Below, piece by piece: positions 47,979 to 62,317 of a stretch of DNA of 64,000 nt (position 1 is its first letter; each line of letters starts with the position of its first letter). The stretch is from a virus. The stretch is taken from the IMG/VR virus record IMGVR_UViG_3300042545_001134, positions 244,600 to 308,599 of that record; one strand, given 5' to 3'. The position numbers and the translations under genes were made by a program. The notes under the pieces are model-generated. The model was not told the origin of the DNA and ran no database searches. It saw only the letters and a program-made list of their open reading frames with translations.

Positions 47979-48362
47979 ATGGAATTAATATTAGTAAGGG
48001 GTTTACCGGGTTCAGGTAAATCAACATTCGCAAAATCTTTGGGTTGTCCTTGTTTCGAGGCAGATATGTATTTCATCAACGAAGATGGGGTGTACAACTT
48101 TGATGCGTCAAAAATTAAAATGGCCCATCAATGGTGTAAAGACAGGTTAGTACAACTCATGGAAGTGGACATCAAAAAAATTGCGATATCGAATACATTC
48201 ACCCAAGAATGGGAAATGGATGATTACTATAAATTGGCGGAACAATACGGGTACACCGTGTTTAGTGTTATCGTTGAGAATAGACATAACGGAAAAAATG
48301 TTCACGGGGTACCTCAGGACAAATTAGAAATCATGAAAGAAAGATTTCAAGTGAAACTTTAG
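47979..48362 (+). CDS. P-loop kinase, polynucleotide 5'-kinase-like
   Basis: This 127-residue protein has P-loop GLPGSGKST (8-16) and the layout of the small AAA_33/Pnk-type kinases, with a conserved Asp (FEADMYF) at the substrate site and a C-terminal helix. It lacks a phosphatase half, unlike T4 Pnkp. It starts the RNA-repair cassette: the next gene (6 bases later) is an Rnl1-like RNA ligase. I infer that it phosphorylates 5'-OH ends of cleaved RNA, probably tRNA. Confidence 0.75.
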   Translation: MELILVRGLPGSGKSTFAKSLGCPCFEADMYFINEDGVYNFDASKIKMAHQWCKDRLVQLMEVDIKKIAISNTFTQEWEMDDYYKLAEQYGYTVFSVIVENRHNGKNVHGVPQDKLEIMKERFQVKL

Positions 48363-48367
48363 ACATT

Positions 48368-49432
48368 ATGTTAGACATTTTAGAAAGATATCATAAGGAT
48401 GGTTTGTTACATAAACAAACCCACCCAACTCTTGATTTGACCATATGGAATTATTCGCCGAAAGTTCAATATGAAAGACTGTGGGATGAGATAACTGTGC
48501 AATGTCGTGGTCTTGTTACTAACAGTAAAGGTGAAATTGTTGCGAAACCATTCAAAAAGTTCTTCAACTATGAAGAACATAAACCAGAAGAAATACCAAA
48601 TGAGTATTTTGAGGTTTATGAAAAAATGGATGGTTCTTTAGGTATATTATTCAACTATAATGGTGAATGGGTAATGGCAACCCGTGGTTCGTTTATTTCT
48701 GAACAATCAGTTAAAGGTCGTAAGTTACTTGAGAAATATGATTATAATCGGTTACATACCGACTACACTTATTTATTTGAAATAATCTATCCCGAAAATA
48801 GAATTGTGTGTGTTTACGATTTTGAAGATTTAGTTTTATTGGGTGTAATCCACACAGAAAGTGGTAACGAGGTTAATATTCATAACCTCAATAATGAAGA
48901 TATCCGATTAAACAACATGATTGGTAATTTAGGTTTCAGAGTCGTTACCTTATATAAAACATGGGGTGAAGGATTTGACGTACTGAAAGAAGAAATATCA
49001 AAAGATAGAGAAGGATACGTTATTCGTTTTAGAAATGGTTTTCGTATGAAAATCAAAGGGGATGAATATGTCCGTTTGCACCGAATATTAACCAATATAT
49101 CTAATAGAGACATTTGGGAGTATTTGAAAGATGGTAAACCTATGGATGAAATCTTAGATAAAGTACCCGATGAATTTTACGATTGGGTTAAGAACACCAA
49201 AAATGATTTAATTACACAATTCAATATATTAGAAAAAGAATATCAATGGATATTCAAAGTAACAAACAGGGTTCACGGTATTGAGAATCGTGCAGTCTTT
49301 GCTGAGTACGCAAAAAAATACAAACACCCCAACTTATTATTTAATATGTTGGATGGTAAAGACTATTCGCAACAAATATGGAAACTTCTGTACCCAACAT
49401 ATTCAAAACCATTTAAAAAAGATGAAATATAG
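48368..49432 (+). CDS. RNA ligase, T4 Rnl1-like
   Basis: This 354-residue ATP-dependent RNA ligase has nucleotidyltransferase motif I EKMDGS with Lys86, the strand YLFEIIYPENRIV (motif III-like), DREGYVIRF (motif IV) and FRMKIKGDEY (motif V). An N-terminal QCRGLV/KPFKKFFNYEE segment fits the Rnl1 group. The C-terminal half is helical. It would rejoin tRNAs cut by host anticodon nucleases. It overlaps the start of the cyclic-phosphate receiver gene by 11 bases, so the three genes form one cassette. Confidence 0.9.
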   Translation: MLDILERYHKDGLLHKQTHPTLDLTIWNYSPKVQYERLWDEITVQCRGLVTNSKGEIVAKPFKKFFNYEEHKPEEIPNEYFEVYEKMDGSLGILFNYNGEWVMATRGSFISEQSVKGRKLLEKYDYNRLHTDYTYLFEIIYPENRIVCVYDFEDLVLLGVIHTESGNEVNIHNLNNEDIRLNNMIGNLGFRVVTLYKTWGEGFDVLKEEISKDREGYVIRFRNGFRMKIKGDEYVRLHRILTNISNRDIWEYLKDGKPMDEILDKVPDEFYDWVKNTKNDLITQFNILEKEYQWIFKVTNRVHGIENRAVFAEYAKKYKHPNLLFNMLDGKDYSQQIWKLLYPTYSKPFKKDEI

Positions 49433-49918: not shown

Positions 49919-50248
49919 ATGGATACAAATACTAACTCAATTGCGACCAAAAAATTATTAATAAAAGGAAAGTATGAAGGTTTTAAAGACTTTTATGATG
50001 TTAACAAAATTGTTATTTACAAAAACATTTTAAAACTTTTTACCAACTTCAAAAAACAAGATAAAGACCAATTAGTTCTTATCATTTCGGCAAAGATTAG
50101 TAATTTAGATTGGGAAACCGAATTGAAATTTCAAAGAAAAGAGTCCATCGTTTTAGTTCGTGATATCATGCCGTACTTCGAGCAAATCGAAGACTATGAA
50201 ACATGTGGTCAAATCTGTGACCTATACAAAAAAATACAATCAGTTTGA
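49919..50248 (+). CDS. Hypothetical protein
   Basis: This 109-residue soluble protein has an N-terminal polar stretch, then a helical and beta-mixed domain (KLLIKGKYEGFKDFYDVN, QLVLIISAKISNLDWETELK, DIMPYFEQIEDYETCGQICD). No domain recognised. It lies after the RNA-repair cassette with a possible weak promoter, and its end overlaps the convergent 763-residue gene by 9 bases. Function unknown. Confidence 0.55.
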   Translation: MDTNTNSIATKKLLIKGKYEGFKDFYDVNKIVIYKNILKLFTNFKKQDKDQLVLIISAKISNLDWETELKFQRKESIVLVRDIMPYFEQIEDYETCGQICDLYKKIQSV

Positions 50249-52531
50249 TGAGTGAGATAAGTTTGAATCACCTTTAACAATATACTTTATGTTAAGGGTG
50301 ACAGAACTTGTCACAAAATTTATAGTAAAACTCGTAACGGGTGTTACTGTTTTATAATTTGATGGAGTTATCGAATTAAAATCTGACGCAGTATACCACC
50401 ACACTTTATCAAACGTAATCATACCTGTAAGATTTGCACCAAGTAAGTACGCATCAGGTATGGTAACAACACCGTCATCATTAATGTCACCAGCCCTCAT
50501 TTTAGGTCCACTGTTCAAATGTATTCCTGAAAGTGTATTGTTGGGTGTATTTTCATTTTGAGACTCGTTAAACACCAAATCAAAGTCTGATGAAGTTAGT
50601 GTTGGCGTAAATGAAGGTACAACTTTGAAAGTTGCATTATGTTTTGTTGGATTCAATGTATATGTTCCGTTTGTTGCGACCGTTACGGTTTGTAATAATG
50701 TGTCCGTAGTACCCACAACCAAATATAATTTAACCTGCGGTCTTGTGGATAGTCCAGATGGAATTGTAATTGTACCACTAATTGTTTCAGTTATAATTGA
50801 AACCGTACCATTACTACTATATGCAAATCCACAAGTACCACTTTGTAATTGTGCTCTAAATAATGTTTTGGTTGTAATGTTTGTATAACTATTACTTGCA
50901 GTTGTGTTTGTTATGTCTGTCCAGTTGACACCGTCATTAGTAGACTTCTGCCATTTAACAATAGTTCCAGTATAACTACTTAATGTCAATGTACCTGAGT
51001 TTGTTGTACTCGTGTGAGTTGCTGATGACACACCACCACCAACAGGGGGTGTTCCCGATGTTACGCTGATAGTTTTAGCACCTGATAATACCGCACTACC
51101 ACAACTCGGTGTTTGGACTTCAACACGATAATAATATGTACCAGCGGAACTTATGGTTTCTGTTAAACTTGTTGTTGTGTTAGAGATATTAGTCCAATTC
51201 ACGTTGTCCGTTGAGCGTTGCCATTTATTTACATTACCCTGTTGACCTGATAATGTTAATTCAACTTGACCACCGGCACATATAGAATTATTTGCCGCGA
51301 ATACCGACCCCGATTTAGTTGGTTTTACGGTAACATAGACACTTGAGGTTGCCAATCCCGAACAACTAACAGGACTTGATGAATTCACAATTGCTCGGTA
51401 ATATGTTGTCTTCGTTAAATTGGTTACCGTTATACTTGTTGATGTACTTGTGATAGTTGTTCCTGCAGTAAAAAAGTTATCGAAAGATGATTCCCATCTA
51501 ACAACACTACCCGATAAATTATTTAATGTTAATGTCGTACTATTACTTCCTGAACATACGTTAACATCACCACCACTTATGTAACCACTTGAAGAGTTAC
51601 TGACCTCAATATTTCTTGTTAATATAGTTGTACTCGTTGTTATATCACCCGGCATGTCACCATACTCACAAATATAACCCGGTAGAGTACTATTTGCTAA
51701 GTCATTCCATTGACCACTATTTGATGAATAGAATTGTCCAAACGCTTCCGAGGTACCATTTGGTTCTCCACCCGCCCATTTATGATACATACCCGATACT
51801 AAGGTTGTACTTGGGGTATTTCCATTTGAAAAGTTTTGACCTTTTTCAGGACCTGTAACCCAGTGCCACTTTCCTTCTGATGCGGATTGACTCGCATAAA
51901 CAGTTGAACCCTTTGCAGTGTTGATATAGTTGTAATCATCCGATGCACCAAACCAAGCATCGTTTGCCATTAATTTCCAAATAAAGTTATTTTCCGCCTC
52001 GGATAAAACTGTTGCCAAATAACCAACCCTTCCGAAGTATGATTTATTACTTGCGTTTGTATATGAATTAGTCCAACTTGTATTACCCGACACATATTCA
52101 TAAAAGTGTTCGGTTAATGGATTATAAAAAACAGTACCTGCAACGAAAGTCACTCTTCTTTGAAGTGCGTAACATGTGGAGGTGGTTGATTTAAATTCAA
52201 CACCCCTTAATACTGATTCCCAATTTGTTGCAGTTGTTGAACCACTAAAAATTAAAACACCCGTTGTGGTATTAAATGATGAAGAAACTCCCGATGGAAG
52301 TGTTGCCGTTGACCTTAATTGGTCACCACTCGTATATGTTTGAGATATTTGAACTCTAAAACCTGTAATCGTTCCATTTGCGGTTAAAGTTAGATTTGGG
52401 TCAACTTTAGTCCACGTATTATATGTCGATGAAAGAGCACTCGTACTTGATGTTCCAAGACTAACAGATGTTGCCTGTGAAAAACCTAAGACTGGTAACA
52501 ATAAAAATAATATGTATAGTAGTTTTCTCAT
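50240..52531 (-). CDS. Secreted protein with C-type-lectin-like, Ig-like and dockerin-like domains
   Basis: This 763-residue protein has a signal peptide (LLYILFLLLPVLGFS, cleaved near A-T). A first domain has C-type lectin features: Cys, WFGASDDYNY, GGEPN (the EPN triad) and QWNDLANSTLPGYICEYG with Cys. Then come about three Ig-like repeats of the form KWQRSTDNVNWTNISNTTTS, and a dockerin-like loop AGDINDDGVVTIPDAYLLGA. The C-terminus resembles that of the T9SS-tagged protein at 55901 without the sorting domain. It overlaps its neighbours by a few bases. It may be an exported, host-surface adhesin. Confidence 0.7.
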   Translation of the reverse strand: MRKLLYILFLLLPVLGFSQATSVSLGTSSTSALSSTYNTWTKVDPNLTLTANGTITGFRVQISQTYTSGDQLRSTATLPSGVSSSFNTTTGVLIFSGSTTATNWESVLRGVEFKSTTSTCYALQRRVTFVAGTVFYNPLTEHFYEYVSGNTSWTNSYTNASNKSYFGRVGYLATVLSEAENNFIWKLMANDAWFGASDDYNYINTAKGSTVYASQSASEGKWHWVTGPEKGQNFSNGNTPSTTLVSGMYHKWAGGEPNGTSEAFGQFYSSNSGQWNDLANSTLPGYICEYGDMPGDITTSTTILTRNIEVSNSSSGYISGGDVNVCSGSNSTTLTLNNLSGSVVRWESSFDNFFTAGTTITSTSTSITVTNLTKTTYYRAIVNSSSPVSCSGLATSSVYVTVKPTKSGSVFAANNSICAGGQVELTLSGQQGNVNKWQRSTDNVNWTNISNTTTSLTETISSAGTYYYRVEVQTPSCGSAVLSGAKTISVTSGTPPVGGGVSSATHTSTTNSGTLTLSSYTGTIVKWQKSTNDGVNWTDITNTTASNSYTNITTKTLFRAQLQSGTCGFAYSSNGTVSIITETISGTITIPSGLSTRPQVKLYLVVGTTDTLLQTVTVATNGTYTLNPTKHNATFKVVPSFTPTLTSSDFDLVFNESQNENTPNNTLSGIHLNSGPKMRAGDINDDGVVTIPDAYLLGANLTGMITFDKVWWYTASDFNSITPSNYKTVTPVTSFTINFVTSSVTLNIKYIVKGDSNLSHSSN

Positions 52532-54159
52532 AGATTAACCTTACTACCTATTAAGAAGAAAGATAAAATAGGAATTTCGGGGTTCGAACTTATATTCGCC
52601 TTATAATTCATGTTTATTTTAAATCTTTTTGAGATTTGATAATCAAATCCACTACCCAAGAATCCACTAAAAAATCTATCGGTTATTGTTACTTGTTCTT
52701 TTGTTGAGTAAACCAACGGTGTTGACATTACATATAATTCGGGTGACACCATTAATTTTTTACCGACCTTAAACGGTCTGGTGTAAAACGCAGTTACAGA
52801 TGGTGAATAATAACCACTCTTATCTTCTGAAATGATTGATACCGCACCACTTACGTTAAAACCCGTAACACCCCATTTACCTGCGTTTAAAATACCACTA
52901 TATCCTAAGAAACCAAGTATATTTCCATAGGTGTATACACCAGTTAGACTAGCGTTATGTATGTACTTTATTGTGTTCTTTTTATTGTAATGTAACTTAG
53001 TATATTTTGTCGATATCGCAAATTGATTAAGATTTGCCCAAATCATAGCGGTCGCCCCGAAACTCGATAAACCTGTCATTGATGACCTGTTTGCACTCAA
53101 GTTAAGAATTGGAGTAAATGTTTTATTTAAATTTTGTGCGGTTGTTAAATCAGAAGAAACAATCAATGGATTTGAACTACCTGATTTACCACCACCTGAT
53201 TTACCACCACCTGATTTACCACCACCCGATTTACCACCACCTGAACTACCACCACCACTACCATTATCGTTGTGAGCGTCATTATTCATTGTTGTGGTTG
53301 CCCCAACCTCTTCATTACTTTGACTGTTTGAATTGTTACCCGACCCCGTTCCACCACCTGTTGTACTTCCGCCTGTGGTTCCACCCGAACTACCCGTAGA
53401 ACTACCATTACCACCGGTTCCACTTCCACCTGTTGTACTACCGCCAGTTGTTCCTGAACCACCCGTTCCACTTCCTCCTGTTGTACTACCGCCAGTTGTT
53501 CCTGAACCACCTACAGGTGGCTGAGACGAGCCACTTCCCCCTTGAGGTGGGTTACTTGAACCTGTGCTGTTTCCTCCCTGTGTTCCAGTTGAACCTCCCT
53601 GAGAAGAATTAGTTCCTCCAGTCGACCCAGTAGTTCCTCCTGAACCTTGGGATTGACCTCCATTCTCGCCTCCCTGAGAAGACGAACCACTTCCGTTATT
53701 GTTATTACCTGACCCATTTGAATTTCCATTAGATTGTTTATTCCCATCTTTTTTATTATTCCCACCGGCATTAAGATTACCCCCACTCGATGATGATTGA
53801 GCGGATGACATAATACTACCAACAACCGATTGTACGGTACTACTAATAATTTGGGATGTGATTTGATTTTGTGTTACTTGACCTTGTTGTTGTGAACATG
53901 GGTTTGTTTGACGATACTCGGAGTATGTTTGATTAACCCAACTTGAGAATACTCCACTGGCAACATCCGCAGCGGTAAAGTATTGACTTTTATTTAAAAA
54001 AAATATTGTAGTACCACCTTGTAATGGTACGGTAAAAAGAGTTACTTCTTTTGTACATGGGTCGATAAATGTTTGCACCGACACCTGAGCCTTTATATTC
54101 TGACTAAACAGAACAAAAAAACTTATAAAAAATAATGTCTTTATTGTTTTCCAATACAT
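52528..54159 (-). CDS. Exported Gly/Ser-rich protein with C-terminal beta-barrel
   Basis: This 543-residue protein has a signal peptide (LFFISFFVLFSQNIKA). A Cys-containing head domain (SVQTFIDPCTKEVTLF) comes first. A low-complexity Gly/Ser/Thr-rich stretch of about 200 residues (TGGSGTGGSGTTGGS type, with SGGGK repeats) follows. The C-terminal third has alternating aromatic strands (GFNVSGAVSIISEDKSGYYS, YTRPFKVGKKLMVSPELYVM) and resembles an outer-membrane barrel; it ends GSKVNL. It may be anchored in the host outer membrane with a flexible stalk. It overlaps the 763-residue gene by four bases. Confidence 0.65.
   Translation of the reverse strand: MYWKTIKTLFFISFFVLFSQNIKAQVSVQTFIDPCTKEVTLFTVPLQGGTTIFFLNKSQYFTAADVASGVFSSWVNQTYSEYRQTNPCSQQQGQVTQNQITSQIISSTVQSVVGSIMSSAQSSSSGGNLNAGGNNKKDGNKQSNGNSNGSGNNNNGSGSSSQGGENGGQSQGSGGTTGSTGGTNSSQGGSTGTQGGNSTGSSNPPQGGSGSSQPPVGGSGTTGGSTTGGSGTGGSGTTGGSTTGGSGTGGNGSSTGSSGGTTGGSTTGGGTGSGNNSNSQSNEEVGATTTMNNDAHNDNGSGGGSSGGGKSGGGKSGGGKSGGGKSGSSNPLIVSSDLTTAQNLNKTFTPILNLSANRSSMTGLSSFGATAMIWANLNQFAISTKYTKLHYNKKNTIKYIHNASLTGVYTYGNILGFLGYSGILNAGKWGVTGFNVSGAVSIISEDKSGYYSPSVTAFYTRPFKVGKKLMVSPELYVMSTPLVYSTKEQVTITDRFFSGFLGSGFDYQISKRFKINMNYKANISSNPEIPILSFFLIGSKVNL
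53181..53255 (-). repeat. 15-bp tandem repeats coding SGGGK units
   Basis: Five near-identical copies of a 15-bp unit (CCTGATTTACCACCA on the plus strand, one or two substitutions) encode SGGGK. Consecutive units, no spacers. Confidence 0.9.
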
Positions 54160-54162
54160 AAT

Positions 54163-54170
54163 AATAAATA
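54163..54170 (-). promoter_or_regulatory. Candidate late promoter (TATTTATT)
   Basis: Minus strand GTATTTATTATTATG, 3 bases before the ATG at 54159 and directly after a terminator hairpin (54178-54194). Confidence 0.45.
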
Positions 54171-54177
54171 CTAAAAA

Positions 54178-54194
54178 GGGGGTTATTAACCCCC
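54178..54194 (-). terminator. Intrinsic terminator after the CsgG-like gene
   Basis: GGGGGTT/AACCCCC stem with a 3-base loop, followed on the minus strand by TTTTTAG. It stands between the CsgG-like gene and the exported Gly-rich gene. Confidence 0.75.
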
Positions 54195-54227
54195 CAAATT
54201 TTTAATTATCAATAATAAAAAATAACA

Positions 54228-54995
54228 TTAATTAGGAAAAACACCCTTCTTAATCATCCTAAGTAGGATTCTACTACATGCGATGTCCAATGATTTTTTT
54301 GTTGCGATTCCAATTGTTGATTGGTTGAATTTTACTTCACTTAGATTATCATCGTTTAATAAACTTAATTCTCTTACCGTCGTCGCCTCACCCAAACCAC
54401 TAGCACCAATAATGGCACCCGTTTCTGCGTCTGTGAATCGAACTTGCATACCAATACGAGTTGTTACAGTATTTTTAACTCCATTTGCCATGTTTACTGT
54501 TTCATCTTCACTAACAGAATAATCATATAGTTCAATTGTAACAAAGTAATGTGCCAAACGTATTTTACCTCTACCGTTTAAAGTATCTTGGGAAATACCC
54601 GCTTGAGATGCTTGGAATTGTTTTACCATTCTATTCTTAATCTCTGTTTTATCCTCAGTGAAAATAAAACGATTAAGATTCTCAAGATATTCAAGTGTCA
54701 TATTCGCAACACCCAAACCAACTTTCTTTTCCTTTAGTTCAGGGTATAGTTCATATACCTCATCACTAATACCGATTTTTAATATCTGTATTGGAATTTG
54801 AGGTCCCTCATAATCCATTAAAGAATCGATATTAACACTGGTTTCAAAAGATGCCTTATATTGTTCTGTTTGTGTTTTACCGATAGTTTGTGCGGTTGCC
54901 TTATTGGCAAACGCAAACATTAAAAGAAACCATAAGATAACAACCATGATTGGCATCAAATATTGTTTTACTTTATCGTTATTTAATAGTTTCAT
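54228..54995 (-). CDS. CsgG-like exported lipid/outer-membrane protein
   Basis: This 255-residue protein has an N-terminal hydrophobic segment (MPIMVVILWFLLMFAFANKA), read as a signal peptide or anchor. The mature region has the CsgG-family pattern: LAHYFVTIELYDYSVSEDET, GMQVRFTDAETGAIIGASG and the final helix GIATKKSLDIACSRILLRMI. CsgG forms a nonameric outer-membrane channel for curli secretion. A lipobox Cys is not evident, so the membrane attachment may differ. It starts the distal part of an envelope-directed operon. CsgG assignment is by pattern, not by a search. Confidence 0.65.
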   Translation of the reverse strand: MKLLNNDKVKQYLMPIMVVILWFLLMFAFANKATAQTIGKTQTEQYKASFETSVNIDSLMDYEGPQIPIQILKIGISDEVYELYPELKEKKVGLGVANMTLEYLENLNRFIFTEDKTEIKNRMVKQFQASQAGISQDTLNGRGKIRLAHYFVTIELYDYSVSEDETVNMANGVKNTVTTRIGMQVRFTDAETGAIIGASGLGEATTVRELSLLNDDNLSEVKFNQSTIGIATKKSLDIACSRILLRMIKKGVFPN

Positions 54996-54996
54996 A

Positions 54997-55551
54997 TTAT
55001 AAACTGCCTTCTTCTTTTATTTTTCCGCACTTTAAACATTCTTCTTCACCATCTCCGTCAGCATCACCCCAAACGTGTTCACACTGTCTGTGGTCAAAAT
55101 ACTCATCGATGATTCCGTCGTTGTCAAAGTCTAATCCGTCCATAACACCATCTCCATCTTCATCGATTTCAACACCTTTTTTGGCAACTTGGACAGGTTG
55201 TTCAAGTTCCTCGATTATGGGTGACGATGTTGGTCCACTTGGTATATCAGACGTGTTTGATATCGAAATACCGTCCTCCTCATCCATTTTCTGAACTAAC
55301 ATTTTATCCTTATCGGTATCACTAAACCAATAGTCAATGATTTTCCCGTAAGAACCAATAAATGCACCTAATAAAAGGAGTAAAAGTTCTTTCCACTCTC
55401 CTTCAATTGGTGATTTGGAGAATATCGCAAAAAACATTCCGCCAACGATGAACATGAACCCACCTAATACTAAAGCGGTAATGTACCATCTTCTACGCAT
55501 CATTGCATATAATAATTGCTTAAATCCGTCTGGTTGTTGTGTATTTGACAT
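54997..55551 (-). CDS. Two-helix membrane protein with Asp-rich calcium-like loops and zinc-like tail
   Basis: This 184-residue protein has two transmembrane helices near residues 22-43 and 52-68 (YITALVLGGFMFIVGGMFF, ELLLLLLGAFIGSYGKII). The C-terminal part contains Asp-rich loops DEDGDGVMDGLDFDNDGIID and DADGDGEEE, like thrombospondin type 3 or EF-hand calcium loops. It ends with CEHVW...CLKCG, a possible zinc ribbon-like pair. It starts 24 bases after the neighbouring gene. The function is unknown, but membrane anchoring plus metal-binding loops fit an envelope role. Confidence 0.6.
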   Translation of the reverse strand: MSNTQQPDGFKQLLYAMMRRRWYITALVLGGFMFIVGGMFFAIFSKSPIEGEWKELLLLLLGAFIGSYGKIIDYWFSDTDKDKMLVQKMDEEDGISISNTSDIPSGPTSSPIIEELEQPVQVAKKGVEIDEDGDGVMDGLDFDNDGIIDEYFDHRQCEHVWGDADGDGEEECLKCGKIKEEGSL

Positions 55552-55575
55552 ATTTCTTTTTTTTACTTTAAATTA

Positions 55576-55896
55576 TTACCATTTTGGCTCTTCAGCCGCA
55601 AATTCGTCTTTTTTCTTTTCTTTAGGTTTTTCAGCTGGTGCTGATGCCGCTGGTTTTTCAACAACTCTTTCAATCACTTTGGTTGTACCACCTGATTGTT
55701 GTTGTTGGTTAGCGTTACTGTTAGTAATGTTAATAACGGGTGCTGCTTGTTGAACTGGTTGTGCTTCTTCAGCACCTCCACCTAACATTGTTGCGAACCA
55801 TGTACCGGCGCCTAATACTGCTGTTGACAATACACCGATTATGGTTTTTTTAAGTCCTGTCCAAGTTCCTTCTTGTTCTTGTGTTTCTTCGCTCAT
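55576..55896 (-). CDS. Small membrane protein with Gln/Ala/Pro-rich tail
   Basis: This 106-residue protein has one hydrophobic helix near residues 17-38 (TIIGVLSTAVLGAGTWFATM). The remainder is Gln/Asn/Ala/Pro/Lys-rich (INITNSNANQQQQSGG) and probably disordered. No signal cleavage site is clear. It lies 4 bases after the T9SS-cargo gene. It might bridge membrane and periplasm in the exported module, but no family is recognised. Confidence 0.6.
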   Translation of the reverse strand: MSEETQEQEGTWTGLKKTIIGVLSTAVLGAGTWFATMLGGGAEEAQPVQQAAPVINITNSNANQQQQSGGTTKVIERVVEKPAASAPAEKPKEKKKDEFAAEEPKW

Positions 55897-55900
55897 AAGT

Positions 55901-57808
55901 TTAGAGTTTTATAAATTGTTTTGTTAATTGGTTATTTTGATTGTTTAATACTAAATAGTAGTGACCCGTACTTGATGATGTCATGTCAATTTGTTTGTAT
56001 CCCACTGTGGAACCTTGACCTGAAATTTCACCAATGTGTTTCACCAATCTACCTTGCATATCATAAATACTACCATTTAACTTAATATTCGGGTCGGGGA
56101 AAAGAACCTCAATCTCAAACCATCCTGTTACTGGATTTGGTCTAATAAGTGCGCTAATTTCTTTAAATTCACCGGGTAAAGTGGTTGGTGACATTTTATA
56201 GAAAAGTGTGGTCACTTGACTTGCTAAGTTTATTTCCAAATGGTCACCGTTATTATCAGATGCATCCATTAATTTTCTCACATAAATGTTTGTACTAACA
56301 TCAACATTACCAATTGGACTAAATTTTATTTTAAATGGAGTGTGTGAACCAACCAATCCGTCTTTTTGTTGGTTGTTCATACCACCGAATCTGATGGTTC
56401 CCGCGGCCTCATCATGAGTTAAGTATTGTAACCAAGGACCACCATTAAAGTTGGAAACTATTTCATCAAATTTAACCTTTGTTTTATCGTACTTCATCTC
56501 AAACTGTAAACCGTAGTTTTGGTCACCATTTGTGTTGATGTTAAATGGAACATACATTGGTTGTCCAAGTGATGATGTATTAGGAATTTCAACATCTAAT
56601 TTACCTTTATAAACCGCCTTAGCAACTAATACACCTGAACTGTTATAAACAGGAGATGAATAAGTTCTATCAACGTCACCTAATACAAAGTACTTAATAT
56701 CGATGTTAGTTAAGTTAGTGGTACCAATACTATCCACAACATAATTGTATGCGGTTGAGTGGTTTGTCCATTCTGTCCATTGGTTAGCGCCTAACACTAA
56801 TGAATCAAATACATTTCTGTGGAATGCGTGAATCATTGTGGTTGTGTCAATCTTTTTAAGACCACTTATGTTTGCGTAAATCAAATAAGGGTCACCACCA
56901 TCGATTTTACCGTTTTTGTTAACATCACCAATCAAATACGCCAAACCATGTTTCAAGTAGTTTTGTGATGGTGTTTGACTAACATCGGTAACCGAATATT
57001 CATCATATGTTTTAACCGCATCAGATATAGTAACACCATAATCTCTAATAGTAGTCATACTATCTGCTGGGAATCTTACTGTTAATTTATATTTTGTATT
57101 TTTATCTACGTTGTTAAGAGAGTAAAGACCTGCAGTATCCACTTGTTGTGAAGATACAAATTCACCTGTGTTAAATTTAGTACAAATGATTGTAGGTCTC
57201 ATTCCAACACCTACCATAGTAGGTGGTAACCATACTTTACCACTAATAACCAAGTTACCCAAAAGTTCAAGATGCATATCCTGTACGTTCAAGGTCGCAA
57301 TGTTATCACCAATTGTGGTACCATCAAATTTGAACATACGAGCCCAGTTAATTTCAAGACTATCCGCGTTGAAGTTTGATGTAACATCATTTATGATAAA
57401 TTTGTTATGTATTAAGAAAGTATCCGCAGTAATCTGAGAACCACTTGATAATACTAAGTAATTTCTGGCAACAGTGTAGTTAGTATCGGTTGCATATGTG
57501 TACGAACTTGTACTTGAGTTGTAACCCGAATACTTGTAGTCATTAAAGAACTTAATAGACAACGAAGGGGTCATACTACTAACGGTAGCGTCAACAGTTG
57601 TTGATACGTGAGTAAAAAGTTGTTTTCTATATTGAAAATCAACTTGGAAGGTTCTTATGTCCACAGATGACGATGCGTCATATTTGAACACCACATCTAA
57701 TGTGTCTCCTCTTTTAATGGTTTTATAGGCAACTGGGTTACCTATACCTTGTGCAAATGCCGACGATGATGTAATTAATACAACAAGGGCTAAAATTAGT
57801 TTTTTCAT
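55901..57808 (-). CDS. Exported protein with T9SS C-terminal sorting domain and dockerin-like loop
   Basis: This 635-residue protein has a signal peptide (LILALVVLITSSSAFA). The last about 80 residues fit the type IX secretion sorting domain: IRPNPVTGWFEIEV, SIYDMQGRLVKHIGE and the final KQFIKL. Before it, a cohesin/dockerin-like region has GDVNKNGKIDGGDPYLIYAN with Asp/Asn calcium-like spacing. The first domains are beta-rich. It would be exported by the host T9SS and either released or anchored on the surface. It overlaps the CsgG-like small gene at 57805 by four bases. Strong host-type feature in a phage genome. Confidence 0.75.
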   Translation of the reverse strand: MKKLILALVVLITSSSAFAQGIGNPVAYKTIKRGDTLDVVFKYDASSSVDIRTFQVDFQYRKQLFTHVSTTVDATVSSMTPSLSIKFFNDYKYSGYNSSTSSYTYATDTNYTVARNYLVLSSGSQITADTFLIHNKFIINDVTSNFNADSLEINWARMFKFDGTTIGDNIATLNVQDMHLELLGNLVISGKVWLPPTMVGVGMRPTIICTKFNTGEFVSSQQVDTAGLYSLNNVDKNTKYKLTVRFPADSMTTIRDYGVTISDAVKTYDEYSVTDVSQTPSQNYLKHGLAYLIGDVNKNGKIDGGDPYLIYANISGLKKIDTTTMIHAFHRNVFDSLVLGANQWTEWTNHSTAYNYVVDSIGTTNLTNIDIKYFVLGDVDRTYSSPVYNSSGVLVAKAVYKGKLDVEIPNTSSLGQPMYVPFNINTNGDQNYGLQFEMKYDKTKVKFDEIVSNFNGGPWLQYLTHDEAAGTIRFGGMNNQQKDGLVGSHTPFKIKFSPIGNVDVSTNIYVRKLMDASDNNGDHLEINLASQVTTLFYKMSPTTLPGEFKEISALIRPNPVTGWFEIEVLFPDPNIKLNGSIYDMQGRLVKHIGEISGQGSTVGYKQIDMTSSSTGHYYLVLNNQNNQLTKQFIKL

Positions 57809-58305
57809 AGTAGTTTATCGAGTAAGTTTATTGTTGTTTTCTTTATTGCAGAACTTGCGGATTCTTGATTGAATTTACCTCCCTCATCAATAATGATTGT
57901 TGAAGTTGATATTTCAGTCGATTTACCTTCCGCAAATTCAGTTTTAATTTTTTTATCTCCTTTATAGAGAACACCCTTCATTCTAATGACGGTGGTACTT
58001 TTATCTTGGTGAAATACAGCAATTCCTGATTTAGTATTGACGATATCAAAGAATATTAATTCAACCTGTATTGAGTATTCGGCCTTTTCTTTTACCCCAA
58101 TCAAGACCAAACTATCTTGTTCATTTATTATTTCTTGAACAATGTTTTTTACTCCAAACGCCAAATTTTTGTTACCAACAAGAGTACCAACACGGATGTT
58201 GTTAATCACGGGTTCAACAAAAATAGTCGGTCCTGTCTGAGCAGTTACGCTCAAAAAGGGACATAGGAATAGCACAGAAAAAATTATACTTTTGATAAGT
58301 CTCAT
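57805..58305 (-). CDS. Exported small protein, CsgG/TolB-N-like
   Basis: This 166-residue protein has a signal peptide (IKSIIFSVLFLCPFLSVTA). Its mature part has the pattern of a small CsgG/TolB N-terminal-like domain: VEPVINNIRVGTLVG, NIVQEIINEQDSLVLIGV and EYSIQVELIFFDIV, ending in the helix SSAIKKTTINLLDKLL. It may be a partner of the CsgG-like protein at 54228. The assignment is by fold pattern and context. It lies downstream of the holin-like gene and overlaps the T9SS-cargo gene by four bases. Confidence 0.55.
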   Translation of the reverse strand: MRLIKSIIFSVLFLCPFLSVTAQTGPTIFVEPVINNIRVGTLVGNKNLAFGVKNIVQEIINEQDSLVLIGVKEKAEYSIQVELIFFDIVNTKSGIAVFHQDKSTTVIRMKGVLYKGDKKIKTEFAEGKSTEISTSTIIIDEGGKFNQESASSAIKKTTINLLDKLL

Positions 58306-58329
58306 GGTTAAACAGTGGAATAAATTAGA

Positions 58330-58590
58330 TTATTCAGAGATTTCGTCTTCCGATTTTTTATTCTTGTTGTTAATCCACTTATCGACAGATGCGATACCGA
58401 ATGAACCTAACGTGATTACTAAAAATCCGTCAAAGATAAATTCGTTAATTAGTAATTCTTTACCCATCCAACCTGTAATAAGGTCAACGAATAGAGAGAT
58501 TACCATCATGAGAAACGCGATGAATCCCACTACTGATTTCTCGTTAATTGTGTTGTTATCGTTAAATAACTGGCTGAAAAATTTTTTCAT
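58330..58590 (-). CDS. Holin-like small membrane protein
   Basis: This 86-residue protein has two hydrophobic helices: VVGFIAFLMMVISLFVDLIT and INEFIFDGFLVITLGSFGIA. It has a short charged N-terminus and a Lys/Asp-rich C-terminus (KWINNKNKKSEDEISE). This size and two-helix topology fit class II holins. It is the first gene of the exported-protein operon, with a late-type motif 36 bases upstream. No endolysin gene is seen next to it. Lysis timing or membrane tethering are both possible. Confidence 0.6.
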   Translation of the reverse strand: MKKFFSQLFNDNNTINEKSVVGFIAFLMMVISLFVDLITGWMGKELLINEFIFDGFLVITLGSFGIASVDKWINNKNKKSEDEISE

Positions 58591-58626: not shown

Positions 58627-58634
58627 AATAAATA
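58627..58634 (-). promoter_or_regulatory. Candidate late promoter (TATTTATT)
   Basis: Minus strand GATATTTATTGATAAC, 36 bases before the ATG at 58590, start of the exported-protein operon. Nearly identical to the motif at 12096. Confidence 0.5.
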
Positions 58635-58928: not shown

Positions 58929-59001
58929 GGGCTGTTGGTATAGTTGGCTAACACACGACATTTGCACTGTCGAATCCCCGGTTCGAAGCCGGGACGGTCC
59001 A
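58929..59001 (+). tRNA. tRNA-Ala(TGC)
   Basis: Acceptor GGGCTGT/ACGGTCC (two G-T pairs), anticodon stem CGACA/TGTCG, loop TTTGCAC with anticodon TGC, T-arm CCCGG-TTCGAAG-CCGGG. CCA not encoded. First tRNA of the array. Confidence 0.92.
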
Positions 59002-59006
59002 CAAAG

Positions 59007-59018
59007 TGTTCTTTGACA
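59007..59018 (+). promoter_or_regulatory. boxA-like element TGTTCTTTGACA
   Basis: Matches 10 of 12 positions of the E. coli boxA TGCTCTTTAACA. It continues TATTGG and lies between tRNA-Ala and tRNA-Phe. NusB/S10 binding site is inferred. Confidence 0.5.
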
Positions 59019-59032
59019 TATTGGTTTAATTT

Positions 59033-59105
59033 GGTACCGTAGCTCAGTTGGTAGAGCGTCGCCCTGAAGAGGCGAGCGTCACTGGTTCGAATCCGGTCGG
59101 TACCA
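59033..59105 (+). tRNA. tRNA-Phe(GAA)
   Basis: Acceptor GGTACCG/CGGTACC, anticodon stem TCGCC/GGCGA, loop CTGAAGA with anticodon GAA, T-arm ACTGG-TTCGAAT-CCGGT, discriminator A. Confidence 0.95.
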
Positions 59106-59110
59106 CATTT

Positions 59111-59184
59111 GTCTCCGTAGCTCAGTTGGTTAGAGCACCTCACTTTTAATGAGGGAGTCACGCGTTCGAGTCGCGTCGGGGACA
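59111..59184 (+). tRNA. tRNA-Lys(TTT)
   Basis: Acceptor GTCTCCG/CGGGGAC, anticodon stem CCTCA/TGAGG, loop CTTTTAA with anticodon TTT, discriminator A. Decodes AAA/AAG, frequent codons in this AT-rich genome. Confidence 0.95.
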
Positions 59185-59191
59185 CAAAGGT

Positions 59192-59282
59192 TGATTGGGG
59201 AATGATTATGTCGATAGTTCGAGAGTGAATACTGACTGACATAATCGGAGTTTGGAGGTGTTCACCTAAGTAATGCCAATCA
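59192..59282 (+). ncRNA. Candidate structured RNA, three-way junction
   Basis: Closing stem TGATTGG (59192-59198)/CCAATCA (59276-59282). Inside are a perfect 9-bp stem GATTATGTC/GACATAATC (59204-59212/59238-59246) and a small hairpin AGGT-GTTC-ACCT (59256-59267). No open frame is present. It lies between tRNA-Lys and tRNA-Val. I recognise no known RNA family. Confidence 0.55.
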
Positions 59283-59284
59283 TA

Positions 59285-59317
59285 AAAGTAGATGTCCACT
59301 GAACCATCTTCTACTTT
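59285..59317 (+). other. Hairpin after the 59192 RNA
   Basis: AAAGTAGA/TCTACTTT perfect 8-bp stem with a 17-base loop, followed by CCTTTATTT. It may end the structured RNA or act in processing before tRNA-Val. Confidence 0.5.
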
Positions 59318-59326
59318 CCTTTATTT

Positions 59327-59399
59327 AGTTCCGTAGCTCAGTTGGGAGAGCATCTGCCTTACATGCAGAGGGTCACTGGTTCGAACCCAGTCGGAACTA
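59327..59399 (+). tRNA. tRNA-Val(TAC)
   Basis: Acceptor AGTTCCG/CGGAACT, anticodon stem TCTGC/GCAGA, loop CTTACAT with anticodon TAC, discriminator A. Confidence 0.95.
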
Positions 59400-59408
59400 C
59401 AAATACAC

Positions 59409-59480
59409 ATGGGTGTGGTGCAATGGTTAGCATAAGAGTCTCCAAAACTTTTGATGGGAGTTCGAGTCTCTCCACCCGTG
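59409..59480 (+). tRNA. tRNA-Trp(CCA)
   Basis: Acceptor ATGGGTG/CACCCGT, anticodon stem AGAGT/ACTTT, loop CTCCAAA with anticodon CCA, T-arm GGGAG-TTCGAGT-CTCTC, discriminator G (the usual Trp base). Confidence 0.9.
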
Positions 59481-59501
59481 CAAACTTTAAAAACAAATAA
59501 C

Positions 59502-59930
59502 ATGGAAAGAGATGACAACATCGATGCCGTCAAAATGAGATTTGAGGCGGAGAAAATGAAATTAAGGGAAGAAAGGGAAAAAACAATTAAACAGTATTGG
59601 GAAAATTTACCAAAACTTAATAATCCTGAAGATGTACCAACACTCCCAAGAGTTGATGAAAAACAATGGAGGGAGTTTTATGTCCCAAAATTAATCGAAG
59701 CGGGAGCAATCCCAAAAAATGATTTAATTCATGGTCAAATTTATATTGGTGAACATAGAAACACAACCATCGCAAGATGGAATCAAGAAACAGATAAATT
59801 TGTACACATGAGATATAAGTTTGGTTGGAGAGAAGATGAATGTAATCACTTTGAGGATGATAATGGATTTGCGTTGTTTGTACCAATTAGATTGGGTACA
59901 CAAGAAGAATGGGATGAAAGAATTAAATAA
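59502..59930 (+). CDS. Conserved phage protein inside the tRNA array
   Basis: This 142-residue protein starts at ATG 59502, not the ATG at 59451 that lies in the tRNA-Trp sequence. The N-terminus is a charged helix (DAVKMRFEAEKMKLREEREK). The C-terminal domain has LIHGQIYIGEHRNTTIARWN, then a beta phrase FVHMRYKFGWREDECNHFED followed by GFALFVPIRLGT. This HRNTTIARWN pattern recurs in small phage/bacterial proteins of unknown function. It lies between tRNA-Trp and tRNA-Arg in the same orientation. No function assigned. Confidence 0.65.
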   Translation: MERDDNIDAVKMRFEAEKMKLREEREKTIKQYWENLPKLNNPEDVPTLPRVDEKQWREFYVPKLIEAGAIPKNDLIHGQIYIGEHRNTTIARWNQETDKFVHMRYKFGWREDECNHFEDDNGFALFVPIRLGTQEEWDERIK

Positions 59931-59937
59931 TTAAGTT

Positions 59938-60011
59938 ACTCTCGTAGTTCAATGGATTAGAACATTTCACTACGGATGAAAGGGTTGGGAGTTCGAGTCT
60001 CTCCGAGAGTA
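59938..60011 (+). tRNA. tRNA-Arg(ACG)
   Basis: Acceptor ACTCTCG/CGAGAGT, anticodon stem TTTCA/TGAAA, loop CTACGGA with anticodon ACG (inosine likely), T-arm GGGAG-TTCGAGT-CTCTC, discriminator A. Confidence 0.92.
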
Positions 60012-60017
60012 CGATAA

Positions 60018-60087
60018 GGTCAGTTTGGTCGTGGAGGCCGGTTAGTCTGCAAAATTAACGGAGTTGGTTCGATTCCAACATTGACCT
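60018..60087 (+). tRNA. tRNA-Cys(GCA)
   Basis: Acceptor GGTCAGT/ATTGACC, anticodon stem TTAGT/ATTAA, loop CTGCAAA with anticodon GCA, T-arm GTTGG-TTCGATT-CCAAC, discriminator T (the normal Cys base). D-arm is somewhat irregular. Confidence 0.88.
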
Positions 60088-60093
60088 CAATAT

Positions 60094-60168
60094 GGTGGAT
60101 ATAGTTCAGTTGGTTAGAACGTCTGATTGTGGTTCAGAAGGTCGCCGGTTCGAATCCGGTTATTCACC
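60094..60168 (+). tRNA. tRNA-His(GTG)
   Basis: The extra 5' G (-1) pairs with C73, the His identity pair. Anticodon stem TCTGA/TCAGA, loop TTGTGGT with anticodon GTG. The three bases after C73 are CCA (60169-60171), so CCA may be encoded. Confidence 0.93.
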
Positions 60169-60174
60169 CCATAT

Positions 60175-60248
60175 TGGAATATAACTCAGTTGGTTAGAGT
60201 GTCATCCTGATACGGTGAAAGTCGGTGGTTCGAGTCCACCTATTCCAA
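60175..60248 (+). tRNA. tRNA-Ile(GAT)
   Basis: Acceptor TGGAATA/TATTCCA, anticodon stem TCATC/GGTGA, loop CTGATAC with anticodon GAT, T-arm GGTGG-TTCGAGT-CCACC, discriminator A. Confidence 0.93.
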
Positions 60249-60255
60249 CAAACAT

Positions 60256-60329
60256 TGCGGGGTGGTCTGGAGAGGTTCCAGCTCGGTCTCATAAGCCGAA
60301 TCACGTGGGTTCGATTCCCACTCCCGCAA
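60256..60329 (+). tRNA. tRNA-Met(CAT)
   Basis: Acceptor TGCGGGG/TCCCGCA, anticodon stem TCGGT/GCCGA, loop CTCATAA with anticodon CAT. A normal 1-72 pair and no triple G-C anticodon stem argue against initiator; elongator Met or lysidine-modified Ile2 both remain possible. Confidence 0.9.
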
Positions 60330-60344
60330 CTTTTTAAAAACATT

Positions 60345-60374
60345 TTGAAGTGTGACTTTTATTATGTATATTTG
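60345..60374 (+). promoter_or_regulatory. Host-type promoter inside the tRNA array
   Basis: TTG (60345-60347), exactly 19 bases, TATATTTG (60367-60374). A boxA-like element starts 4 bases later. It would drive tRNA-Thr onward. Confidence 0.75.
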
Positions 60375-60377
60375 AAA

Positions 60378-60389
60378 TGTTCTTTGATT
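60378..60389 (+). promoter_or_regulatory. boxA-like element TGTTCTTTGATT
   Basis: TGTTCTTTGA core, right after the -7 box, so it would be at the 5' end of the transcript that begins with tRNA-Thr. Confidence 0.45.
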
Positions 60390-60393
60390 TAAT

Positions 60394-60467
60394 GCCTCCT
60401 TAGCTCAGTTGGCCGGAGCGCCTCACTTGTAATGAGGATGTCGGCGGTTCGAATCCGTCAGGAGGCT
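60394..60467 (+). tRNA. tRNA-Thr(TGT)
   Basis: Acceptor GCCTCCT/AGGAGGC, anticodon stem CCTCA/TGAGG, loop CTTGTAA with anticodon TGT, discriminator T. CCA is encoded at 60468-60470. Confidence 0.93.
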
Positions 60468-60472
60468 CCATT

Positions 60473-60545
60473 GGTCCCGTGGTTGAATGGTTACAATTCC
60501 ACCCTGTCACGGTGCGAGGTACGGGTTCGAATCCCGTCGGGACCG
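60473..60545 (+). tRNA. tRNA-Asp(GTC)
   Basis: Acceptor GGTCCCG/CGGGACC, loop CTGTCAC with anticodon GTC, T-arm ACGGG-TTCGAAT-CCCGT, discriminator G as usual for Asp. One mismatch at the outer anticodon stem pair. Confidence 0.92.
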
Positions 60546-60548
60546 CGT

Positions 60549-60734
60549 TGAGTAAGAGATACTCACTAAGTTTGGTAACGTTCTTTCAAGATGTTATAGT
60601 TGTCGCCTTCCACAACTTTAAAGAGGAGGTCGTCGGAGTATGGTCGTAACAAAACCACCGAGTATGTTTGACGTTTATGTGCGGGTAAGACCGTCTCGTG
60701 TTTTCAATACGAAAACAGAAGAAAAATCTACTCA
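60549..60734 (+). ncRNA. Candidate structured RNA between tRNA-Asp and tRNA-Ser
   Basis: Closing stem TGAGTA (60549-60554)/TACTCA (60729-60734), though a local hairpin GAGTA/TACTC competes. Inside: AGTTGT/ACAACT (60598-60603/60612-60617), CGTC/GACG (60631-60634/60670-60673) and TGTTTTC/GAAAACA (60699-60705/60711-60717). No supported protein frame. Unknown family; weaker case than 62108. Confidence 0.4.
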
Positions 60735-60757
60735 TTGGAATCTCAGGTGGGAAAATT

Positions 60758-60843
60758 GGAAGGATGGCAGAGTTGGTCTATCGCATCGGTCTTGAAAACC
60801 GAAGTACTGAAAGGTACCGTGGGTTCGAATCCTACTCCTTCCG
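60758..60843 (+). tRNA. tRNA-Ser(TGA)
   Basis: Class II tRNA with long variable arm. Acceptor GGAAGGA/TCCTTCC, anticodon stem TCGGT/ACCGA, loop CTTGAAA with anticodon TGA, discriminator G (the usual Ser base). Confidence 0.95.
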
Positions 60844-60844
60844 C

Positions 60845-60857
60845 AAACGATTGTTGT
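60845..60857 (+). repeat. 13-bp inverted repeat, left arm
   Basis: AAACGATTGTTGT, perfect reverse complement of 61198-61210. The arms bracket the gene at 60890-61180 between tRNA-Ser and tRNA-Glu. Confidence 0.9.
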
Positions 60858-60866
60858 TCTTTGACA
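60855..60866 (+). promoter_or_regulatory. boxA-like element TGTTCTTTGACA
   Basis: Exact copy of the 59007 element. It overlaps the end of the left inverted-repeat arm, right after tRNA-Ser. Confidence 0.45.
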
Positions 60867-60889
60867 AATTAAAAACAAAATTAAAAGAT

Positions 60890-61180
60890 ATGGATACATT
60901 ATCATTTATTTTAGGAATGTCCTCGGTGGTGGTTATCGCAATTGCGGTAGTTGCTGTTAAAGGATTTTTTAAGGTCAGAAATGTTGAGAAACACTTCAAT
61001 GAATACAAACAAAACTTTACAGTTGAGTTTGATAATAGAACAAAAGATATTCATGATAGTATGAATCGTGTGAATGATGAATTACATCGTAGAATTGATA
61101 ACACAGAAAGAGAAGTCTTTTCCCAATTAGACTCTCGATTAGATAAATTGGAAACTAAGTTAACGAGCCGTAAGGCATAA
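60890..61180 (+). CDS. Small membrane protein with coiled coil
   Basis: This 96-residue protein starts at ATG 60890. It has an N-terminal transmembrane helix (LSFILGMSSVVVIAIAVVAV) followed by a charged coiled coil (RTKDIHDSMNRVNDELHRRI, DNTEREVFSQLDSRLDKLET). A longer in-frame extension to 60698 overlaps tRNA-Ser and is rejected. The gene is bracketed by a 13-bp perfect inverted repeat. Function unknown; an inner-membrane tether or spanin-like factor is possible. Confidence 0.6.
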   Translation: MDTLSFILGMSSVVVIAIAVVAVKGFFKVRNVEKHFNEYKQNFTVEFDNRTKDIHDSMNRVNDELHRRIDNTEREVFSQLDSRLDKLETKLTSRKA

Positions 61181-61197
61181 TAAATAAATCGTTAAAG

Positions 61198-61210
61198 ACA
61201 ACAATCGTTT
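61198..61210 (+). repeat. 13-bp inverted repeat, right arm
   Basis: ACAACAATCGTTT, complementary to 60845-60857. It ends 4 bases before tRNA-Glu. Confidence 0.9.
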
Positions 61211-61214
61211 ATAT

Positions 61215-61286
61215 GGCCCTTTCGACTATCGGTTAGGTCGTCAGGTTTTCATCCTGAAAAGTCGGGTTCGATTCCCGGAGGGGCTA
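61215..61286 (+). tRNA. tRNA-Glu(TTC)
   Basis: Acceptor GGCCCTT/AGGGGCT with G-T pairs, anticodon stem TCAGG/CCTGA, loop TTTTCAT with anticodon TTC, T-arm TCGGG-TTCGATT-CCCGG, discriminator A. Confidence 0.88.
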
Positions 61287-61309
61287 CAATGGAATTAAAT
61301 TAAACCAAT

Positions 61310-61549
61310 ATGTTAGAAAGAATATTAGGAATTTACGAAGATGAAGGATTACTTATCGCTGATGGATTCGATGATGCAGTAATTGGAATTGATGAATCGT
61401 CAATGAGAGTAATCTATTCGGTTGCCAAATGTCTCCACATTTTAGAACGTGATATGGAGATGATTGATGCGATTGAATACTTTGAATTTAACGTAAAAGG
61501 CGCATACGTTGGAGACAAGACTCCGATATGGTGTGAAGATTTTTTTTAA
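61310..61549 (+). CDS. Conserved small phage protein of unknown function
   Basis: This 79-residue acidic protein carries YSVAKCLHILERDMEMIDAI and EYFEFNVKGAYVGDKTPIW, a phrase I recognise from small conserved proteins of T4-like phages. No domain or function is known to me. It lies 23 bases after tRNA-Glu and ends two bases before the next gene. The compact spacing suggests co-expression with the SemiSWEET-like membrane gene. Confidence 0.75.
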   Translation: MLERILGIYEDEGLLIADGFDDAVIGIDESSMRVIYSVAKCLHILERDMEMIDAIEYFEFNVKGAYVGDKTPIWCEDFF

Positions 61550-61551
61550 TT

Positions 61552-61761
61552 ATGATTAATTATTTAGGTTACTTCGCAACATTCTTAACTCTACTTTCTT
61601 TTTCTTTTAAAAATATTACAAAATTAAGAATTGTTAGTTCAACGTCATGTGTGTTTTGGATTGTTTATGGGTGTTTAAAAAATGATTATCCAATCATCAG
61701 CACAAATGTTTTAATAATCATAATACATGTGTACTACCTACTAAAAACAAAAAATAAATAA
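61552..61761 (+). CDS. Small membrane protein, SemiSWEET/YgjV-like (PQ-loop type)
   Basis: This 69-residue protein has three hydrophobic helices (YLGYFATFLTLLSFSF, TKLRIVSSTSCVFWIVYGCL, IISTNVLIIIIHVYYLL). The helix spacing and the WIVYGCLKNDYPIISTNV phrase resemble SemiSWEET/PQ-loop and YgjV-like families: half-transporters that move sugars or small polar molecules as dimers. No signal peptide. It starts two bases after the upstream gene. Function inferred from fold pattern only. Confidence 0.55.
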   Translation: MINYLGYFATFLTLLSFSFKNITKLRIVSSTSCVFWIVYGCLKNDYPIISTNVLIIIIHVYYLLKTKNK

Positions 61762-61768
61762 ACTTTTG

Positions 61769-61776
61769 TATATTTG
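61769..61776 (+). promoter_or_regulatory. Host-type -7 element TATATTTG
   Basis: TATATTTG, 18 bases before the ATG at 61795. There is no TTG at the expected -33 position, so the promoter would be weak. Confidence 0.35.
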
Positions 61777-61794
61777 TATATACTTATTAAAACA

Positions 61795-61893: not shown

Positions 61894-61924
61894 ATGTAAG
61901 AATTTTAAACTCTATACTCACGAG

Positions 61925-61987: not shown

Positions 61988-61993
61988 TGATGT

Positions 61994-62005: not shown

Positions 62006-62021
62006 TGTTGGTGAAAAAAAT

Positions 62022-62106: not shown

Positions 62107-62107
62107 C

Positions 62108-62310: not shown

Positions 62311-62317
62311 ATTTAAC

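Follow-up and report, generated by a model that had tools for sequence, protein, structure and literature searches.

The 64-kb window analyzed here (64,000 nucleotides, positions 244,600 to 308,599 of the 310,691-bp virus contig IMGVR_UViG_3300042545_001134 from IMG/VR) carries at positions 50240-58590 a cassette of eight genes, which we designate P1 to P8 by rising coordinate and which probably equips infected Bacteroidota cells with a surface display of virus-encoded adhesins. This reading draws on sequence comparisons and structure models of the encoded proteins. The original prediction, made from the DNA letters, had proposed eight same-strand genes serving the host envelope and secretion; it was partly supported, and it missed the pairing of cohesin and dockerin modules, the exchange of adhesive heads and the wide distribution of the cassette among phages. 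All eight open reading frames (ORFs) were confirmed on the minus strand. The expectation that nearly every product has a signal peptide or a membrane helix also agreed with sequence and hydropathy: P1, P2, P3, P6, and P7 have a hydrophobic N-terminal segment or a signal-peptide-like start, P4 and P8 contain membrane helices, and P5 a single short, weak one. Scans of the window proteins against Pfam, PHROGs, NCBIfam, and PADLOC gave one confident name, the type IX secretion system (T9SS) tail of P6, and a weak lectin match.

The scaffold of the proposed display is P6, whose features are as follows.

55901-57808, minus strand: P6, 635 aa, secreted scaffold with signal peptide, cohesin 1, Xdoc, cohesin 2, and T9SS type A C-terminal sorting domain (CTD)
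57248-57751, minus strand: cohesin-like domain 1 of P6, residues 20-187; divergent, its counterpart in other scaffolds scored by the cohesin-2 profile, assignment moderate
56609-57247, minus strand: Xdoc of P6, residues 188-400, an Ig/transthyretin-like part followed by a dockerin-like calcium-loop helix
56174-56608, minus strand: cohesin domain 2 of P6, residues 401-545, assigned by comparing the family profile with PDB cohesins
55910-56140, minus strand: type IX secretion C-terminal sorting domain of P6 (PF18962, TIGR04183)

The tail of P6 scored above the curated cut-offs of both PF18962 (8.3e-8) and TIGR04183 (2e-6), as foreseen for a T9SS-tagged cargo protein, and it is the only such tag in the whole phage record. 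N-terminal sequence and hydropathy showed a Sec signal peptide at the other end of the protein. Domain borders in P6 and P1 were obtained by domain-wise iterative profile searches; undivided iterative profiles of the lectin and scaffold proteins fused into one family because both carry Xdoc. The family profile of cohesin 2 (A4) retrieved PDB cohesins at 1.2e-7, and P6 itself was not matched by Pfam Cohesin in the scan of window proteins. When the Xdoc family profile (A3) was run against the whole PDB, dockerins made up most of the top matches (ScaH dockerin at 1.1e-5), and the best family member matched the dockerin family PF00404 at 8.2e-5. The D-x-N-x-[DN]...D loop is near-invariant in the Xdoc alignment. 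Cellulose-degrading bacteria are known to assemble proteins through cohesin-dockerin pairs. Exactly two Xdoc proteins are encoded in the phage record, P6 and P1, both of them cassette genes.

50240-52531, minus strand: P1, 763 aa, with signal peptide, N-terminal beta region, C-type lectin, Ig-like repeats, and C-terminal Xdoc
51665-52027, minus strand: C-type lectin domain of P1 with EPN and WND sugar/Ca2+ motifs (Lectin_C)
50243-50761, minus strand: Xdoc (dockerin-containing) module of P1, from the domain-wise profile search

The secreted, lectin-like adhesin that had been predicted corresponds to P1. Its Lectin_C match was below the cut-off in the protein scan (0.0017) and above it in a DNA search (23.4 bits). 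In the lectin family the EPN and WND motifs were each present in 88 of 89 unique proteins; in known C-type lectins these motifs form a calcium and mannose-type sugar site. At the same position in other phages the Xdoc stalk is kept, while the head is PA14 (1.1e-6), GEVED (7e-13) or laminin-G plus lectin (7e-14), all above the Pfam cut-offs. That the stalk stays constant while its adhesive heads are exchanged is the best reason to regard Xdoc as a docking module. Since P6 is built as cohesin-Xdoc-cohesin-T9SS tag and P1 ends in Xdoc, the two look like a matched scaffold and adhesin. A diversity-generating retroelement as the source of head variation was rejected, as the phage record has no reverse transcriptase.

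The cassette is widely distributed. A scan of IMG/VR with P3 gave 524 related places, and a second scan starting from the homologue in Flavobacterium phage immuto gave a more distant set. The presence counts given next refer to 75 non-redundant loci with different P3 sequences and enough flanking DNA and are uncorrected for relatedness; individual loci are labeled L. Across these, P7 was present in 74, P2 in 73, P5 in 67, a C-type lectin in 63, the scaffold with CTD in 60, P4 in 52, and P8 in 40. Gene order was conserved, as was orientation (539 of 541 cassette genes on one strand), so that recurrence of the cassette is far beyond chance. Immuto itself is a cultured phage of 160 kb with the host Flavobacterium sp. 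LMO8, and its cassette reads lectin-Xdoc, cohesin-like-Xdoc, cohesin-T9SS tag, P5, P3 (52% identical), P2, and P7. Here a 243-aa protein matched both Pfam Cohesin (5.9e-9) and Por_Secre_tail (2.4e-8) above the cut-offs, and the product of a neighboring gene matched Lectin_C above the cut-off (3e-15). A plain search with the immuto lectin protein also found the Xdoc of the adjacent gene (9.4e-8).

The immuto cassette adjoins replication and nucleotide genes and lies outside the capsid and tail genes. Its position bears on an alternative in which the proteins decorate the virion and help the particle adhere to cells or surfaces. Virions often carry C-type lectin and Ig-like domains. However, the placement in immuto speaks against such a role, and Sec signal peptides together with a T9SS tag would export the proteins from the cytoplasm before particle assembly; we consider virion decoration very unlikely. 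A virion lectin with the same head as P1 was sought, and none was found in searches of the phage itself or of immuto. As to the origin of the cassette, a scan of 84,980 species of bacteria and archaea matched P3 once, in a metagenome bin, and P3 was absent from 296 of 297 Bacteroidota genomes, the sole match being the same bin. P3 is thus essentially a phage protein; its near-absence from cellular genomes leaves a host-derived cassette, with a recent cellular origin of P3, unsupported.

A sub-group of 15 loci has lost the T9SS tag from the scaffold. Thirteen of these tag-less loci encode two small lipoproteins, and the other two (L021, L025) are without a scaffold in the available stretch. The small-lipoprotein pair (e.g., L054, 8181-8893) occurred in 22 loci, none of which had a tagged scaffold, and one protein of the pair is weakly similar to the T9SS tail (9.5e-4). 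Mutual exclusion of tag and lipoproteins fits a need for anchoring of the scaffold.

The remaining proteins would form the envelope part of the system, with P3 as the hallmark of the cassette.

54228-54995, minus strand: P3, 255 aa, secreted CsgG-fold protein, cassette hallmark (AlphaFold2 (AF2) model and PDB fold search)
57805-58305, minus strand: P7, 166 aa, signal-peptide protein, short P3 paralogue (hhalign)
52528-54159, minus strand: P2, 543 aa, with signal peptide, N-terminal domain, linker, and 12-strand outer-membrane barrel (AF2, alignment)
52537-53166, minus strand: barrel domain of P2, residues 332-541 (AF2, PDB match)

The AF2 model of P3 was of moderate confidence (predicted local distance difference test, pLDDT, 75.6). 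Compared with the PDB, it returned CsgG as all of its top 24 matches (best 3.8e-8), and a BFVD search with P3 likewise had a CsgG as the top viral match. Sequence comparison was less sensitive: hhalign of P3 with three CsgG sequences only gave no match, and after addition of 15 Bacteroidota CsgG it gave 2.4e-5. The P3 sequence profile produced chance HtrA matches only against PDB sequences, and the Pfam CsgG family PF03783 was matched neither by P3 nor elsewhere in the phage record, the best P3 family member reaching 1.9e-4. P7 aligned to P3 by hhalign with an E-value of 1.9e-12 (prob 97.7). For P2, the AF2 model comprised an N-terminal domain, in which the family alignment has two invariant Cys, a disordered Gly/Ser linker of about 200 aa, and a barrel of 12 strands. 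The top PDB match of this model was FapF (3.2e-6), with other barrels close behind. FapF is the exporter of the Pseudomonas functional amyloid and is laid out as N-terminal part, linker, and barrel; this common order strengthens the likeness, which we take as a lead. The fold predictions, named in advance as a possible refutation, did not fail: P3 bears out the expected CsgG-like protein, P7 the small CsgG/TolB-like one, here a P3 paralogue, and P2 the Gly-rich outer-membrane barrel. Three small membrane proteins complete the cassette.

54997-55551, minus strand: P4, 184 aa, one strong and one likely second helix, Asp-rich tail, C-x2-C pair
55576-55896, minus strand: P5, 106 aa, short hydrophobic helix at the N terminus, then a Gln/Asn-rich tail
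58330-58590, minus strand: P8, 86 aa, membrane protein with two hydrophobic segments, accessory cassette member

The Asp-rich tail of P4 probably binds calcium. P8, which had been called holin-like, does have two hydrophobic segments, yet it matched no holin family in Pfam or PHROGs.

Proteins of this kind could also make up a lysis module, in which P2, P3, P7, and the small membrane proteins would open or weaken the outer membrane for phage release, with the adhesins secondary. Of the 75 loci, 43 include an endolysin gene, and in 28 of these it is less than 1 kb away on the same strand. The family found by the cassette combines GH19 with a peptidoglycan-binding domain (e.g., L028, 13594-14433; L118, 14659-15489). 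Endolysins beside so many relatives' cassettes point to action near lysis and keep a lysis role alive, as do P4, P5, and the holin-like features of P8. For CsgGF of the Methylophilales phage Melnitz such a role has been proposed (PMC9004378). On the other hand, 32 of 75 loci have no endolysin of the GH19 family within the available stretch. The GH19 endolysin of the phage itself lies at ~23.7 kb of the record; its distance to the cassette is ~270 kb on the linear map and ~31 kb if the genome is circular. Moreover, lysis needs no T9SS-tagged cohesin scaffold, no dockerins, and no swappable sugar-binding heads. We therefore hold lysis as the purpose of the cassette to be unlikely and retain the adhesin display as the preferred reading.

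Timing of expression was approached through the intergenic DNA and the following signals.

54177-54195, minus strand: terminator-like hairpin in the P3/P2 interval
54164-54170, minus strand: TATTTAT, 11 nt upstream of P2; the motif also precedes portal and terminase
58628-58634, minus strand: TATTTAT, 44 nt upstream of P8

From P1 to P8 the gaps between genes are -4, 68, 1, 24, 4, -4, and 24 nt, so that the overlap originally ascribed to the genes holds for two pairs, by 4 nt each, and not for the rest, which are separated by 1-68 nt. The hairpin and the TATTTAT motif both lie in the 68-nt gap between P3 and P2, and P2-P1 is therefore probably a transcription unit separate from P8-P7-P6-P5-P4-P3. 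In the window span 847-58634, 17 of 52 genes have TATTTAT in the 60 nt upstream of them, versus 3 for its reverse complement, and the motif is probably a phage promoter element. Genes for DNA polymerase, major head, portal, and terminase were identified in the window, and the motif lies upstream of P2 and P8 and likewise of portal and terminase. The late-type motifs proposed at both operon heads are partly supported in this way; sharing with portal and terminase is consistent with late expression of the cassette, without proving it. The cassette is not within the virion module, and its neighbors in the window are RNA-repair-like and tRNA genes. At window positions 58929-63538 and 47979-49432 we observed 20 tRNA genes and, near them, polynucleotide kinase-like and RNA ligase-like genes, the latter two possibly a T4-like tRNA repair pair.

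Other neighbors vary between loci. Twenty-two loci, immuto included, have a gene for a signal-peptide-bearing non-specific nuclease, Endonuclease_NS, inside the cassette or close to it (e.g., L118, 12565-13176; L096, 9935-10513). Superinfection exclusion and receptor masking are known phage strategies in general, and as the sole purpose of the cassette they would have the lectin cover the host glycan receptor and the exported nuclease destroy incoming DNA. Variable heads on a fixed base would suit this purpose, as would the nuclease. Expression appears late, not early, however, judging by the TATTTAT motif common to portal and terminase; in addition, no window protein had a PADLOC match, and the phage has no other lectin sharing a target. 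Exclusion as the only function is, in our estimate, quite unlikely. Separately, in one sub-group the interval between P3 and P2 encodes a class 3 lipase and an outer-membrane barrel resembling a TonB receptor (L054, 10718-16351). This pair, together with the PA14 and lectin heads, is what nutrient scavenging would draw upon, that is, a scaffold, heads, and channel that help the infected cell to bind or import polysaccharide. Yet none of the loci examined had a glycoside hydrolase or polysaccharide lyase on an Xdoc stalk, and of the alternatives weighed here scavenging is the most improbable.

Taken as an adhesin display, the cassette would work in the following manner. P6 would cross the inner membrane via Sec and the outer membrane via the host T9SS and then stay anchored at the surface, where the dockerin of P1 would click onto a P6 cohesin. 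The dockerin of P6 itself could link further P6 copies into chains, giving a lectin-tipped scaffold on the cell. P2 together with P3/P7 would form an envelope apparatus that exports or secures the untagged lectin in the manner of FapF and CsgG, with P3/P7 probably assembled into rings as in CsgG/PelC and with P4, P5, and P8 as inner-membrane partners. Late in infection, the displayed heads would bind glycans. If such a display is made, we favor adhesion and capture as its benefit and, after that, exclusion of other phages: new host cells, particles or siblings held near the bursting cell come a little short of an even chance, a surface masked or blocked against other phages is less probable though a serious candidate, and some other benefit is rather unlikely.

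Apart from the endolysin neighborhood, which a lysis role also explains, several observations weigh against the display. P1 carries no T9SS tag that could account for its passage across the outer membrane. Cohesin 1 of P6 is divergent. Scored singly, the window's own proteins give a weak dockerin signal, with P6 reaching 0.051 against PF00404, and the Xdoc module has only one clear calcium-loop repeat, the second, the first being degenerate in many members. Mutual exclusion of tag and lipoproteins may reflect a single event in one clade. Finally, insertion of P3 into the membrane through CsgG-type hairpins is doubtful. Both hairpin motifs of CsgG (GGVGARYFGIG and the aromatic second hairpin) are absent from P3, the corresponding regions are slightly more charged than in CsgG (0.29/0.26 vs. 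0.18/0.23), and the second is shorter. Consequently, the phage-built outer-membrane channel of the original prediction fits P2, with its 12-strand, FapF-like barrel, and is questionable for P3.

Among known phage systems, the closest in layout are the curli clusters of pelagimyophages and of the Methylophilales phage Melnitz, with csgF, csgG, and curlin-like genes, for which sibling capture and a lysis role have been proposed (PMC7029224, PMC9004378). The cassette resembles them in a CsgG-fold protein, a common strand, secreted surface proteins, small one-helix proteins, and a location near replication genes. In contrast, those clusters encode bona fide CsgG (37-40% identical to that of Escherichia coli), CsgF, and curlin-repeat proteins, whereas none of the eight cassette proteins matched CsgF or curlin repeats in Pfam, and the cassette has cohesin/dockerin modules, a lectin, a T9SS tag, and a FapF-like barrel instead. 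In the pelagiphage and Melnitz clusters (L180, 5847-10910; L181, 5954-10645) we also observed that csgF is preceded by two small one-helix proteins and csgG followed by curlin-repeat proteins; the papers describing them call csgA and csgB missing (PMC7029224, PMC9004378). P3 and P7 share the PelC/CsgG/FlgT fold and differ as a phage-specific family with the near-invariant segment YPELK[ED]K[KR]VGLGV. P2 resembles FapF in having a 12-strand barrel after a helical N-terminal region and a disordered linker, but identity is ~10%, its N-terminal domain has beta strands and a conserved Cys pair, the coiled coil that precedes the linker in FapF was not evident in it, and no Fap fiber genes were seen.

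Phage genes with T9SS type A sorting domains have also been described in Cryophage, where the tagged cargo varies between phages and a change of the host surface was proposed (PMC7468147). The tagged Cryophage proteins are an endoglucanase, a GH39 protein, and a PA14 protein in variable islands; in the cassette, by contrast, the tag belongs to a cohesin scaffold that is conserved and whose dockerin partner is untagged. The cellulosome offers the other parallel, since cohesin and X-dockerin-like modules lie on separate secreted proteins and the scaffold bears the anchor; the cassette differs in being virus-encoded, in its T9SS anchor in place of S-layer or sortase attachment, and in carrying adhesive heads in place of enzymes. 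A limited literature search found no report of a natural phage cohesin-dockerin system, though the original immuto paper may hold an earlier mention. Whether the cassette represents a new class of virus-made surface organelle, namely an adhesin scaffold held together by cohesin-dockerin pairs, with glycan-binding heads that can be swapped, a host T9SS anchor, and a phage-specific CsgG/FapF-like apparatus, common to a large part of aquatic Bacteroidota phages, is in our judgment evenly balanced. If so, cohesin-dockerin pairing would give the virus a means of remodeling the exterior of the cell it infects, with interchangeable heads, and both this pair and the CsgG/FapF-like parts could find biotechnological use. 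Because the cassette is common and present in a cultured phage-host pair, it offers a way to test why phages carry CsgG-like exporters. By its parts, the cassette may be a variant of phage-encoded remodeling of the host surface; by its principle of assembly, it may be of its own kind.

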